NCBI GenBank assembly: GCA_024398055.1
Contig: CP073749.1
Location: forward strand, 4,278,594-4,342,593
Direction: 5' to 3'
DNA length: 64,000 nt
Source of the DNA: a bacterium SCSIO 12741
GTDB taxonomy: Bacteria; Bacteroidota; Bacteroidia; Flavobacteriales_G; Salibacteraceae
Every line of letters begins with the position of its first letter. The first letter of the stretch is position 1. Shown piece after piece: positions 38,886 to 42,541 of this stretch. A program made the position numbers and the translations under genes. The notes below the pieces were generated by a model that was not told the DNA's origin, ran no database searches, and saw only the letters and a program-made list of their open reading frames with translations.

Positions 38886-39392
38886 TCATACGCATACATA
38901 TTTCACCTTTTTTACCAGAAGCATTTTCTCTTGAATCCGCTCTGCATCGCTTTGCAGTGATTCTAAATAATCGGAATCTGTGGTTTCAAGTTGTGCCTCC
39001 CTCAGCCAGTGCAAGGCTTGATCGTAGGCTCGTTTCTTTTCATTTATTAAAGCACGGAGTTGATACAGCCAATCTTTGCGTGACTCGGGGTGGCTCAATG
39101 TTTTACTCACCCATTGCTCCCCCTGATGAAAACGACCTTGCCTAATCAATAACCGGGCAAGGTGATAACCTACCAACCAATAATCGGGGTTTTCCTGCAA
39201 GGCTCTGCGGTAATAATCTTCCGCTCCCTGAGAATCCTGAAGTTGTTCATACCTCAAGCGTCCCATAAGGTACAAAGCTCCAGGATGCCCCTCTTCCATC
39301 CTTAAGGCTCGTTCAAGGTTTTCCAGCGATTCTTCCAAATTGTAGGGGTAATCCTCTTTGGCCTGTAAATAATATTGATCTGCTTGTGTCAT
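38886..39392 (-). CDS. TPR-repeat protein downstream of the rtcB-prfH genes
   Basis: A 168-residue, probably cytoplasmic protein made of tetratricopeptide helices (NLEESLENLERALRMEEGHPGALYLMGRL, GAEDYYRRALQENPDYWLVGYHLARLL, KRAYDQALHWLREAQ). TPR arrays bind other proteins. It begins 16 bp after the unknown gene that is coupled to prfH, so it is likely the last gene of that RNA-repair transcript. A scaffold role in repair is an inference from position only. Confidence 0.75.
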   Translation of the reverse strand: MTQADQYYLQAKEDYPYNLEESLENLERALRMEEGHPGALYLMGRLRYEQLQDSQGAEDYYRRALQENPDYWLVGYHLARLLIRQGRFHQGEQWVSKTLSHPESRKDWLYQLRALINEKKRAYDQALHWLREAQLETTDSDYLESLQSDAERIQEKMLLVKKVKYVCV

Positions 39393-39408: not shown

Positions 39409-40086
39409 TCAGGAGCGGCAGTGCCGGTCGTAATCCCATTCGTTGTAATTCTTTAGTATTCTTTTGGAGTGTTTACGCTCCTTCCGTCCTTGATGGGCTT
39501 CGTGGCACCACCAGGATTTGTAGTTGTAATTGCTTAGGTCATAATACTCAGGCCGAAGCATCAGTCGTTCAATTTCATCCGATCGACGGTCTAAGTCAGA
39601 ATCAATCACCTTTCGGTGTGTGATGTAAGCTCGCTCCATTTTAGGCCGAAAGAAATAGAGCGGTACCAGTAAATGATACTGATAGCGATACCCTATCCAT
39701 GGGCTCCAACTCTGAACCGTTTTTCGAAACCACTTTTGGGCTTCTTCCGAGAGCAACCGATAGGTCTTTGGACTGATCTTTCTAATTCCGGGGTACAAAA
39801 AGTTCCGATTTTTCATCGGATACTCCTCCCAATACTGGTGCAGCAAAGGTTTATTGGCGGCCCAAATGCGGTATCCACATTTGTCCAAAATTTCCTGAAA
39901 AATGGTGGCATCCGCTCGCCGGGCAATATCATCACGAAGAACCAAAAACTTGAACCAGCCATGGCGAACCGGGTTTTCCAAGGGCTCGTAGCCCAATTTG
40001 CGGTATTCCCAGTTCAGGCGAACTTGTTCTTTTCGCCATTTCATGACTTGTTTTTTCCGACGTCCTTTTTCATGCATAGGTTTCAT
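39409..40086 (-). CDS. Unknown basic protein coupled to prfH
   Basis: A 225-residue protein rich in Arg, Lys, Trp and Tyr, with a strongly basic start (KGRRKKQVMKWRKEQVRL) and end (GRKERKHSKRILKNYNEW). No signal peptide, membrane segment or known domain was recognised. Its composition suggests nucleic-acid or ribosome binding. The ATG overlaps the prfH stop (ATGA at 40083-40086), so it is translationally coupled to the release factor. It may be an undescribed partner in ribosome repair, but nothing in the sequence proves that. Confidence 0.7.
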   Translation of the reverse strand: MKPMHEKGRRKKQVMKWRKEQVRLNWEYRKLGYEPLENPVRHGWFKFLVLRDDIARRADATIFQEILDKCGYRIWAANKPLLHQYWEEYPMKNRNFLYPGIRKISPKTYRLLSEEAQKWFRKTVQSWSPWIGYRYQYHLLVPLYFFRPKMERAYITHRKVIDSDLDRRSDEIERLMLRPEYYDLSNYNYKSWWCHEAHQGRKERKHSKRILKNYNEWDYDRHCRS

Positions 40087-40811
40087 GTCCAGTCAGCCTC
40101 TCTTTTTCCTAACCCTTTGTTCTTCCGACGATCTTTGTGCGGGTCTTTCCTCGCCCGATTGCCTTTGCTTCCGGGTACTGGCTTACGCTTTTCCCGAAAG
40201 TCCATTCCAGTAAATATTTTAACAGGATTTCCACGTTGTAATTCGTTATGATTTTGCCAATCGGCACTTGTTTTAATTCTTAATTCTTCTTGACGCACTC
40301 GAAGCCATTCTGCCTCCAGTCTTTGTCTTGCCAGCTTTTTATTCTGCCATTGTGATCGGTGTTCGGATACCACTACCGAAATGCCGGAAGGCAAGTGTTT
40401 GGCTCGAATAGCCGTGCTCACCTTGTTGACATGTTGTCCTCCAGGACCTCCACTTCTTATGGCCTGATACTCAATATCTCGATCTCGTAAGGCTTCTTCC
40501 GAAGGCGGTTCAAGCATCTTGATTCCGATAAACCAATTTTTGCGTTTGTGGTGGCGTCGATATCGACTTTGACCTATCCAGAGAACAGAACCTTCCCACT
40601 CTCGAATCCAAACCAATTGTTCGGGTTTCACCTTCACGGCGATCAAGGCCGAGAACAAAGTCCCATTTTCGGGTCCCTTCTCCGAGTGAACCACCTGGCA
40701 GTCAAGCCCCTTCCCTCTCCAATCCTGAAGCAGAAACTTGAGCACTTGGGCAACCACCCAACAGCATTCGGCAGGCCCTCTACCCGAGGTTATTTGTAGG
40801 TACTTTTCCAT
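40083..40811 (-). CDS. prfH: Peptide chain release factor H (PrfH)
   Basis: A 242-residue release-factor homologue. The diagnostic N-terminal block ITSGRGPAECCWVV and a WIGQSRYRRHHKRKNWF block distinguish it from RF1 and RF2. The catalytic loop GGPGGQHVNKVSTAIRAKHLPSG is at about 121-140, with GGQ intact. A basic tail rich in Lys and Arg makes it longer than many PrfH proteins. PrfH releases the nascent chain from ribosomes damaged in the decoding centre, working with an RtcB ligase. It starts 4 bp after the rtcB stop. Confidence 0.92.
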   Translation of the reverse strand: MEKYLQITSGRGPAECCWVVAQVLKFLLQDWRGKGLDCQVVHSEKGPENGTLFSALIAVKVKPEQLVWIREWEGSVLWIGQSRYRRHHKRKNWFIGIKMLEPPSEEALRDRDIEYQAIRSGGPGGQHVNKVSTAIRAKHLPSGISVVVSEHRSQWQNKKLARQRLEAEWLRVRQEELRIKTSADWQNHNELQRGNPVKIFTGMDFREKRKPVPGSKGNRARKDPHKDRRKNKGLGKREADWT

Positions 40812-40815
40812 GATT

Positions 40816-42225
40816 TCATCCTTTATCCATTCGTACGATTTTGGGGTAAAACTTCCCCTCCACGCGAACCAATTCTTCTTGTTGTTTCATTACTACTTCC
40901 AAGTCCTTGTATGCTTTTGGAGCTTCGTCCACTCCACCTCCGATCAATTGAATACCCAATCCGTTCAGCATTTTCTTCATGTCACTTCGGGTAAAACTCG
41001 ATCGGGCCTTGGATCTGCTCATCGCTCTTCCTGCCCCATGAGAGGCTGACTGTAAAGCCTCCGAAACTCCTTTTCCTGAAACGATGTATCCTGGTGCCGT
41101 CATAGAACCGGGGATAATTCCCAAGGTTCCGTTTTGAGCTGGTGTCGCCCCTTTTCGGTGAACCACGAATGATTCTCCATTTTGTTGCTCCTCCTTCCAG
41201 GCGAAGTTGTGGTGATTCTCTACCTTGGTCATTGGCCTTAGTCCCAATTCTCGAGAGAGGTTCAGGTGAATCACGTCGTGACAAGCTCTGGCATAATCAC
41301 CGGCCAGATTCATCGCCAACCAGTATTCCTGTCCCGGCTCCGTATCCAGGTCCAGCCACGCCAGGTGCTGAACCGTTTTCGGCAAATGACAGAGATCACG
41401 TGCCAACTGAGTATAGTACTGAGCAATGCTCGCCCCAAAACCCCTTGAACCGGAATGAGAAAGAATTCCCAAGTATTCACCCGGAGGTATTCCCAAGGTT
41501 CCCTCTTGGCTAATTTCTACCCGACCAAACTCCACGAAATGGTTTCCCGATCCGGAAGTTCCAATCTGACGGTAGGCCTTGTCCTTGAGATGGCGAAGAG
41601 GTTCTAAGTCCTGAAATTCAGTGCGATCAAATACCTCGTGATCCCTTCTTGAAAACTGGGTTTTACCAATTCCAAAATGGGTGTGCTTGGTAAGTGCGTT
41701 TTTGAAAGCATGGCGCTGACCGGTAAGCATATTAGCCGGAACATCGTATACTGTCATACACATTCGACAGCCTATATCCAAGCCTACACCGTAAGGTATA
41801 ACCGCATTACGAGTAGCCAATACTCCGCCCACTGGAAGTCCATAGCCTACATGCGCATCGGGCATTAGGGCACCCTTTTCAGCCACGGGTAGACTCATCG
41901 CCTGATCCATTTGCCGAAGGGTCATTTGATCGATAAACTTTTTGCCATAAACCCGATAGGATTTTGGTTCATCCCTCAGCTCATACGATTGAGCTTGAGG
42001 AGTTTCCAATTCCGGTTCAGCAAATTCTTCTGCTAAACGAGACCAGATGGGATCGTCCAGGTATTTTGTTGGATTTGAAAGAACGTCTTGAAGTAGAAAT
42101 AGCTTCTCTTTTTTGGTGGAACGCTTAAAGTGTTTGCCTAAAATTTCAATGGCTAAACTTTTGGATCTATCCGAGTGATATCGAATCCGCTCCAGATCCT
42201 TTCCTCTAATTTTAGAATGGCCCAT
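40816..42225 (-). CDS. rtcB: RNA ligase RtcB (RtcB2-type, with PrfH)
   Basis: About 469 residues from the ATG at 42225 (the longer frame starts with TTG). GTP-dependent RNA ligase joining 2',3'-cyclic phosphate or 3'-phosphate to 5'-OH ends. Metal-binding and catalytic motifs are complete: PDAHVGYGLPVGGV, GVGLDIGCRMC (Mn-binding Cys), GSGNHFVEFG, SHSGSRGFG, ENHHNFAW, RKGATPA, and ASHGAGRAMSR containing the His that is guanylylated. RtcB proteins paired with PrfH have been reported to reseal 16S rRNA cut in the decoding centre by toxin nucleases. It is the first gene of the coupled operon, with two upstream palindromes and an attenuator-like leader. Confidence 0.93.
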   Translation of the reverse strand: MGHSKIRGKDLERIRYHSDRSKSLAIEILGKHFKRSTKKEKLFLLQDVLSNPTKYLDDPIWSRLAEEFAEPELETPQAQSYELRDEPKSYRVYGKKFIDQMTLRQMDQAMSLPVAEKGALMPDAHVGYGLPVGGVLATRNAVIPYGVGLDIGCRMCMTVYDVPANMLTGQRHAFKNALTKHTHFGIGKTQFSRRDHEVFDRTEFQDLEPLRHLKDKAYRQIGTSGSGNHFVEFGRVEISQEGTLGIPPGEYLGILSHSGSRGFGASIAQYYTQLARDLCHLPKTVQHLAWLDLDTEPGQEYWLAMNLAGDYARACHDVIHLNLSRELGLRPMTKVENHHNFAWKEEQQNGESFVVHRKGATPAQNGTLGIIPGSMTAPGYIVSGKGVSEALQSASHGAGRAMSRSKARSSFTRSDMKKMLNGLGIQLIGGGVDEAPKAYKDLEVVMKQQEELVRVEGKFYPKIVRMDKG

Positions 42226-42330: not shown

Positions 42331-42353
42331 CAAAAAAACCCGATCGGAGGATC
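42331..42353 (-). terminator. Attenuator terminator in the rtcB leader
   Basis: In minus RNA, CCUGAUC pairs with GAUCGGG across a CUCC loop, followed by seven U. The 5' side (ACCUGAUC) can instead pair perfectly with GAUCAGGU that overlaps the stop codon of the upstream 10-codon ORF (about 42386-42393), giving a competing antiterminator. Confidence 0.65.
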
Positions 42354-42391
42354 AGGTGTATAAGGTAAGAACCTGGTTCTTTAAAACCTGA

Positions 42392-42424
42392 TCAACGGAA
42401 TGCTATGGTATTCAAATCGAACAT
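42392..42424 (-). CDS. Candidate leader peptide (10 aa) upstream of rtcB
   Basis: ATG at 42424 encodes MFDLNTIAFR and stops at TGA (42392-42394). A full Shine-Dalgarno sequence AAAGGAGG (42431-42438) lies 6 bp upstream. That is unusual in Bacteroidota, whose genes rarely use one. The Shine-Dalgarno can itself be paired with CTCCT at 42447-42451. The stop codon overlaps the 5' arm of a possible antiterminator. A ribosome finishing this ORF would favour the terminator, while failure to translate it would favour read-through into rtcB. Confidence 0.45.
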   Translation of the reverse strand: MFDLNTIAFR

Positions 42425-42468
42425 AAGCGTCCTCCTTTGCGATATGAGGAGATTCAACAATATGAGTG

Positions 42469-42541
42469 CAAATGAGAAACATTTTTTTGGAAAAACCAAA
42501 TGCTTTTTTTCAATGAACCAGCTTCCATACGTAGTATGGAA
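42469..42541 (-). promoter_or_regulatory. Upstream promoter of the rtcB leader with a palindromic operator
   Basis: On the minus strand TTTG at 42497-42500 and TTTG at 42469-42472 are 24 bp apart, fitting the Bacteroidota -33/-7 spacing, although the TA of the -7 box is absent. About 23 bp further upstream TTCCATAC and GTATGGAA form a perfect 8 bp inverted repeat with a 3 bp spacer (42523-42541). Initiation near 42462 would give a 38 nt leader before the small ORF. Confidence 0.45.

Follow-up and report, generated by a model that had tools for sequence, protein, structure and literature searches.

Attenuators of the trp type, found in amino-acid operons, rely on mutually exclusive hairpins that are read by a translating ribosome. 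The leader described here, located upstream of the RNA repair genes rtcB and prfH in Bacteroidota, also has mutually exclusive hairpins, but it carries no run of control codons and its peptide is unconserved. As a kind it is already known, both from ribosome-mediated attenuators such as vmlR (PMC9226507) and from upstream open reading frames (uORFs) that respond to multiple stresses, such as toiL (PMC12121999). The vmlR leader of Bacillus subtilis combines, as here, a leader ORF with a choice between antiterminator and intrinsic terminator, and arrest of a ribosome on the leader turns it on, as we propose for the present one; its target is a factor that protects the ribosome (PMC9226507). The two leaders have no sequence relation, and whereas vmlR responds to peptidyl-transferase drugs, the present operon encodes genes that repair 16S rRNA and its likely input is early elongation failure. 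The toiL uORF of topAI-yjhQ in Escherichia coli is likewise one short ORF on which the site where the ribosome stops reports many translation stresses, but it targets a downstream ribosome-binding site and Rho-dependent termination, and controls a toxin-antitoxin pair (PMC12121999). Autoregulation of rpsU in Flavobacterium johnsoniae also involves a strong Shine-Dalgarno (SD) sequence, which is rare in Bacteroidota, and regulation by the state of the ribosome, but it acts on translation of rpsU itself, without a leader ORF or terminator (PMC9976891); unlike rpsU, one of the two sets of leaders reported below (set F) has no SD.

The rtcB2-prfH operon of E. coli (PMC9223846) contains the same repair genes, and we find a 15-codon ORF with a strong SD, together with a distal pairing arm, in front of its rtcB2; the parts of that report available to us make no mention of a leader. 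No description of leader regulation of rtcB-prfH was found in Rfam or in the literature that we could cover, which was partial.

Here we describe such a leader in a 64,000-nucleotide stretch of the genome of bacterium SCSIO 12741 (the window; GCA_024398055.1, contig CP073749.1, positions 4,278,594 to 4,342,593) and in its relatives. Its layout is far from chance, and the leader is probably a transcription attenuator under ribosome control, holding rtcB-prfH off for as long as its roughly ten codons can be read. The observations suggest that the repair genes are off as long as ribosomes finish a tiny gene and on when ribosomes stop early. If this is true, a ribosome-repair system detects broken ribosomes by setting them a reading test of ten codons, the cell would check its ribosomes through use, and the leader would be a portable reporter for ribosome damage.

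Anatomy of the rtcB-prfH leader

A sequence-only reading of this DNA had proposed a 10-codon ORF with a strong SD, and an arm over its stop codon whose partner can alternatively join a U-tailed terminator. When the window sequence was read, all of these elements were found in their place on the minus strand (Table 1). The SD is complementary to the 3' end of the genome's own 16S rRNA (...CCTCCTTTTT), and the two alternative pairings, of arm B with arm A or with arm C, are recovered by sequence reading and folding, and the terminator scan finds the B:C hairpin as well. The 201-nt leader folds better than its shuffles (z -2.27). No Rfam family matches the window at the gathering threshold.

Table 1. 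Elements of the leader and genes of the operon in the window
Feature	Position	Strand	Basis
Candidate Bacteroidota -7 promoter element, CTCATTTG	42469..42476	-	sequence reading
Shine-Dalgarno of leader ORF, AAAGGAGG	42431..42438	-	complementarity to 16S, conservation
Leader ORF, 10 codons, MFDLNTIAFR + TGA (ATG 42424, TGA 42394-42392)	42392..42424	-	sequence reading, frame comparison
Arm A, GATCAGGT, antiterminator 5' arm, overlaps leader stop codon	42386..42393	-	folding, covariation
Small hairpin between arms A and B, AAAGAACCAGGTTCTT	42367..42382	-	folding
Arm B, ACCTGATC, common to antiterminator and terminator	42350..42357	-	terminator scan, folding, covariation
Arm C, GATCGGGT (42345-42338), and U tract (T run 42338-42332), intrinsic terminator	42332..42345	-	terminator scan, folding, covariation
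rtcB-type RNA ligase (PF01139)	40816..42225	-	profile match
prfH (TIGR03072, above cut-off)	40083..40811	-	profile match
Operon gene 3, no family match; in Flavobacteriaceae, homologs stand first in operons with the leader	39409..40086	-	
Operon gene 4, TPR protein; homologs elsewhere carry the same leader alone	38886..39392	-	

The gene upstream of the leader (42967-42632, same strand) has a terminator-like hairpin of its own at its end, which makes the leader look like the beginning of a separate transcript. The candidate promoter element agrees with the consensus in its TTTG half only (42472-42469), and TAnnTTTG lies at most 60 nt upstream of the leader ATG in 19 of the 22 leaders of the window's type (set C, see below) that were listed first. 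The sequence CCTCC in the loop of the window terminator was considered as an anti-SD mimic and rejected, as it is not kept in relatives.

Among the operon genes, PrfH scores 230.9 bits against TIGR03072 (cut-off 166.65). The RtcB protein belongs to the RtcB superfamily (PF01139) and lies outside the RtcB2 family model TIGR03073, against which it scores 123.8 bits (cut-off 271.8).

As we propose it, transcription would start just upstream of the leader ORF, and a working ribosome would initiate and reach the ORF end, where its leading edge would cover arm A; with A covered, B would be free for C, and the U-tailed hairpin would stop transcription. With no ribosome on the ORF, or with one that halts by about the sixth codon, A would stay free and pair with B once B is made, C would be left partnerless, and RNA polymerase would read on, allowing RtcB, PrfH and two further proteins to be produced. 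The proposed signal is early elongation failure, as in E. coli ribosomes with cut 16S rRNA, rather than loss of the anti-SD.

Conservation of the layout in Bacteroidia

A scan for PrfH gave 76 loci, dominated by Bacteroidota, and the window's own order gave eight more with rtcB-prfH. Eighty-four leaders were collected; they fall into two sets, C (the window type, 29 leaders) and F (Flavobacteriaceae and allies, 55 leaders). Alignment of the region upstream of rtcB-prfH, which the sequence-only reading had put forward as a check, shows that the ORF and the stems are conserved: across Bacteroidia the same layout recurs in other sequences, with compensatory base changes. Set C leaders mostly have ORFs of 10-17 codons, a usually strong SD, and an arm A of the type GACCGGG, GATCAGG or AATCGGG. 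Set F leaders have ORFs of 24-28 codons without an SD, an arm A of CTTCGnGACTTC, and a conserved hairpin within the ORF; they stand at the head of the operon even where another gene precedes rtcB (up to 1742 nt before rtcB). An intrinsic terminator lies 3' of the ORF in 76 of the 84 leaders, which thus have two mutually exclusive hairpins, one of them a terminator.

With hand-picked arms, 141 of 145 cells are paired in A:B of set C, both partners vary at four of the seven positions, and all 124 cells are paired in B:C. When the arms of 11 distinct pairs, also hand-picked, were swapped, the observed pairing was reached in 1 of 20000 permutations. This test on curated arms replaced an earlier one on long unselected segments, whose result in set C was weak (1770 of 20000 permutations) because arms A and C resemble each other. 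RNAalifold returned zero pairs from the set C alignment, so the search model for this set, R2, is a sequence-only one. For 32 sequences of set F the covariation score is 0.248 for A:B with the ORF hairpin and 0.273 for B:C with the ORF hairpin; none of 500 shuffles scored as high for either alternative, and slid controls gave 0.04-0.14. The unpaired letter of arm A, which is the third base of an Arg codon CGN, varies freely. The set F hairpin inside the ORF, at codons 11-17, shows compensatory changes of its own (AGAACC/GGTTCT, AAAGGC/GCCTTT, AGATCC/GGATCT), and one may ask whether it acts as a pause or a hurdle for the ribosome.

These patterns bear on the simplest account of the locus, a plain terminator beside a chance ORF with no regulation. 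Terminators near short ORFs are common, and equilibrium folding favours the terminator. However, the ORF and arms A, B and C are conserved with compensatory changes across families, and the leader is re-used before other genes, so that this account is already strongly disfavoured and has hardly any likelihood left.

In a census of 396 evenly drawn Bacteroidia genomes, a search with TIGR03072 found PrfH in 27. Judged by eye on the upstream regions, a leader ORF is present in 26 of these 27 genomes and the full ORF-A-B-C-U layout in 17; L113 has the full layout with a weak tail. Eight of the 27 (L117, L181, L183, L184, L188, L190, L194 and L196) have a short ORF, with its stop codon in or beside a hairpin, and no recognisable intrinsic terminator; these ORFs have about 14-15 codons and the hairpin around their stop is short. 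One genome (L180), which has an E. coli-type RtcB2, shows none of the leader layout. Within set C, L034-L036, L116, L118 and L032 keep the ORF and the hairpin at its end, also without a recognisable intrinsic terminator. As these eight operons of the census and the set C loci just named lack one, their output step may be a different one; the class formed by the eight is possibly Rho-dependent.

Reading frame of the leader and predicted folding by ribosome state

A short leader ORF precedes the regulated genes in 84 loci, as read from sequence. Frame 0 is open in all 84 leaders (the ORFs were chosen as open), compared with 15-45% for the other frames. In codons 2-10 nonsynonymous single changes outnumber synonymous ones, and the peptide is not conserved; the leader of L094 is frame-shifted and still ends at the same place. 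Together, the unconserved peptide and the frame-shifted case indicate that the act of translation matters, not the peptide.

The distance from the ATG to the start of arm A is 31-32 nt in 17 of 21 set C leaders, whose ORFs span 10-17 codons, and by reading it is the same in L034-L036, L113 and L116, all of them without a good terminator. Protection by a ribosome extends about 15 nt past the first base of the codon in its P site. With the fixed spacing, a ribosome would therefore touch arm A only from about codon 7 and cover it from about codon 9.

The sequence CATATC(G) recurs just before arm A in set C, at +18/+19 from the ATG (for example in L033, L096 and L097), and is also present in set F leaders L048, L250 and L262; in the window it is found upstream of the SD (42446-42441), instead of just before arm A. 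It occurs in 17 of 29 set C and 12 of 55 set F leaders, compared with 5 of 485 long ORFs, and does so in two reading frames, and it acts like an RNA motif. Its position at +19 in set C would place His-Ile codons at positions 7-8, as might be expected of an amino-acid attenuator or a peptide-specific arrest. Since the motif is read in two frames (L097, L117), is absent from the window ORF and lies in peptides that drift, we rejected His-Ile as control codons or as a stalling peptide. The leader peptides contain no runs of repeated control codons and the operon is one of RNA repair, and regulation of this sort is very improbable.

Predicted folding was compared between ribosome states. A ribosome placed at the stop codon hides arm A, and the terminator then has a mean probability of 0.95 in set C and 0.98 in set F. 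When the transcript stops short of arm C and the start region is covered, 75 of 76 leaders form A:B, with means of 0.96 (C) and 1.00 (F), against 0.51 and 0.34 for shuffled spacers. In the window, before arm C is made, the A:B probability is 0.99 without a ribosome and 1.00 with the start region covered, the latter value being reached by none of 30 shuffles. Masked folding and leader geometry agree, in these models, that the position of the ribosome would decide between the two hairpins. The part of the sequence-only switch in which an ORF end free of ribosomes favours the ON fold is supported under this layout, and the part in which loss of the anti-SD blocks initiation is doubtful, as discussed below.

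Full-length leaders at equilibrium mostly favour the terminator whatever the ribosome state; for the window leader its probability is 0.95 for free RNA, 0.90 with a ribosome at the start and 0.98 with one at the stop. Folding of this kind is uninformative on switching, and truncated transcripts were used instead. As equilibrium prefers the terminator in every window state, switching must depend on the order of folding during transcription, and the switch would therefore be kinetic if it works as proposed.

The behaviour of empty RNA raises the alternative of a classic attenuator with the opposite rule, in which the start region pairs with arm A to give the OFF state and only early-arrested ribosomes give the ON state. 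In many set F leaders the start region does pair with A in empty RNA, as in classic attenuators, and the terminator probability falls on going from free RNA to a ribosome at codon 4 (from 0.86 to 0.11 in L042, 0.58 to 0.02 in L077 and 0.99 to 0.05 in L100). The sequence CGAAG, complementary to CTTCG in arm A, precedes the ATG by 6-10 nt in 73% of set F leaders and in 0.9% of long ORFs. However, L200 and L202 retain CGAAG although it has no complement in their arm A, and the window leader has no such pairing, given its A:B probability in free RNA. We consider the opposite rule rather unlikely.

Regulated genes and the likely signal

The sequence-only reading held that the strong SD is itself the sensor: ribosomes cut in the decoding centre would lose the anti-SD and fail to initiate on the leader, and the antiterminator would form. 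SD strength in the leaders is indeed unusual. Pairing of -8 kcal/mol or stronger is found in 62% of the 29 set C leaders but in 1% of 128 long ORFs from the same loci, and the free leader RNA of the window is predicted to form A:B. The window SD pairs at -11.8 kcal/mol, calculated with a 9-nt tail by a method that differs from the one behind the bS21 threshold of about -13 kcal/mol. The genome as a whole shows no enrichment of AAAGGAGG-N4-9-ATG (31 sites, and 35 for the reversed pattern), so that the evidence lies in the conservation of the SD and not in the SD alone. The genome's own bS21 gene (rpsU; L150, L151) is without a strong SD, and its 16S rRNA ends in GGAATACCTCCTTTTT, not in GGATCACCTCC (L150, L151).

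Three points make sensing through the SD improbable. All 55 set F leaders share the design and lack an SD; Bacteroidia ribosomes normally hide their anti-SD (PMC9976891); and after cleavage by colicin E3, E. coli ribosomes retain about 75% of normal initiation (PMC2615495). The first two of these indicate that loss of the anti-SD is not needed for sensing. The strong SDs of set C might serve to make initiation on the leader frequent and so to hold the OFF state tightly.

Elongation by E3-cut ribosomes halts after about eight codons, with essentially no peptide expected beyond about eight residues (PMC2615495), and exactly such ribosomes are the substrate of PrfH and RtcB2 (PMC9223846). Taken with the 31-32 nt between ATG and arm A, this halt means that the leader geometry would separate cut from intact ribosomes, and early elongation arrest fits that spacing better than failed initiation does. 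The leader could thus be a processivity ruler, on which ribosomes with a cut in the decoding centre would initiate, halt before about codon 8 and leave arm A untouched, turning on the genes for releasing and re-ligating these same ribosomes, together with the TPR protein; this version fits better with arm A being within reach only once the P site holds codon 7 or a later one. We hold it to be a real possibility, somewhat short of an even chance, and infer that ribosome damage is the natural inducer.

The layout itself requires merely an empty ORF end, and the leader might respond to any block of early translation (drugs, starvation, cold) with no tuning to cut rRNA, in the way that vmlR and toiL respond broadly (PMC9226507, PMC12121999). 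The genes under its control bear on this. Of 249 Flavobacteriaceae genomes, 35 contain hits of the set F model, R1, at 41 sites in all. An rtcB or prfH operon follows at 18 of them and a TPR gene homologous to the one at 38886-39392 of the window at 17; one site precedes a PcfJ-like gene, a type also found at the front of rtcB operons, and another precedes a gene homologous to that of the aminoglycoside acetyltransferase meta-AAC0020 (E 9e-28). Such genes thus account for 37 of the 41 sites, and the other four, without such a gene, are weak (E above 5e-4). In the window's order, model R2 found only rtcB-prfH leaders at E below 1e-4. The leader defines a regulon in Bacteroidota, which links gene 3 and the TPR protein functionally to the repair genes. 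The site before the acetyltransferase, an enzyme against decoding-centre drugs, favours a general stress response, but it is a single case (L250:380-1187, = L285) among six homologs examined, not refound in the five more distant ones, and the regulated genes otherwise form one narrow set. A general response is tenable, though we would not call it probable.

Solitary TPR genes with the leader (L236, L238, L244-L249, L252, L254, L257-L261 and L263) often have no rtcB-prfH nearby. In one cluster two copies of the leader are present, before PcfJ-like-rtcB-prfH and before a TPR gene (L239:465 and L239:5037).

Beyond Bacteroidota, the region before rtcB2-prfH of E. coli ATCC 25922 (FDA Seattle 1946) contains AAGGAGG, a 15-codon ORF (MTNPLSMTLCRPFQD) and the arms CAGACCTTTCCAGG and CCTGGATTCGTCTG, and in the predicted fold the SD pairs with codons 8-10. 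No intrinsic terminator was seen in the E. coli and other proteobacterial rtcB2-prfH leaders that were read, and the output step may be different in these. The similar E. coli leader suggests that this idea has arisen in, or been kept by, more than one phylum. Among four other proteobacterial loci, two (L269, L270) have a short ORF with a strong SD, one of them with a perfect 15-nt distal complement. Including E. coli, short ORFs with a strong SD were noted before proteobacterial rtcB2-prfH at L204:918-1052, L205, L269 and L270.
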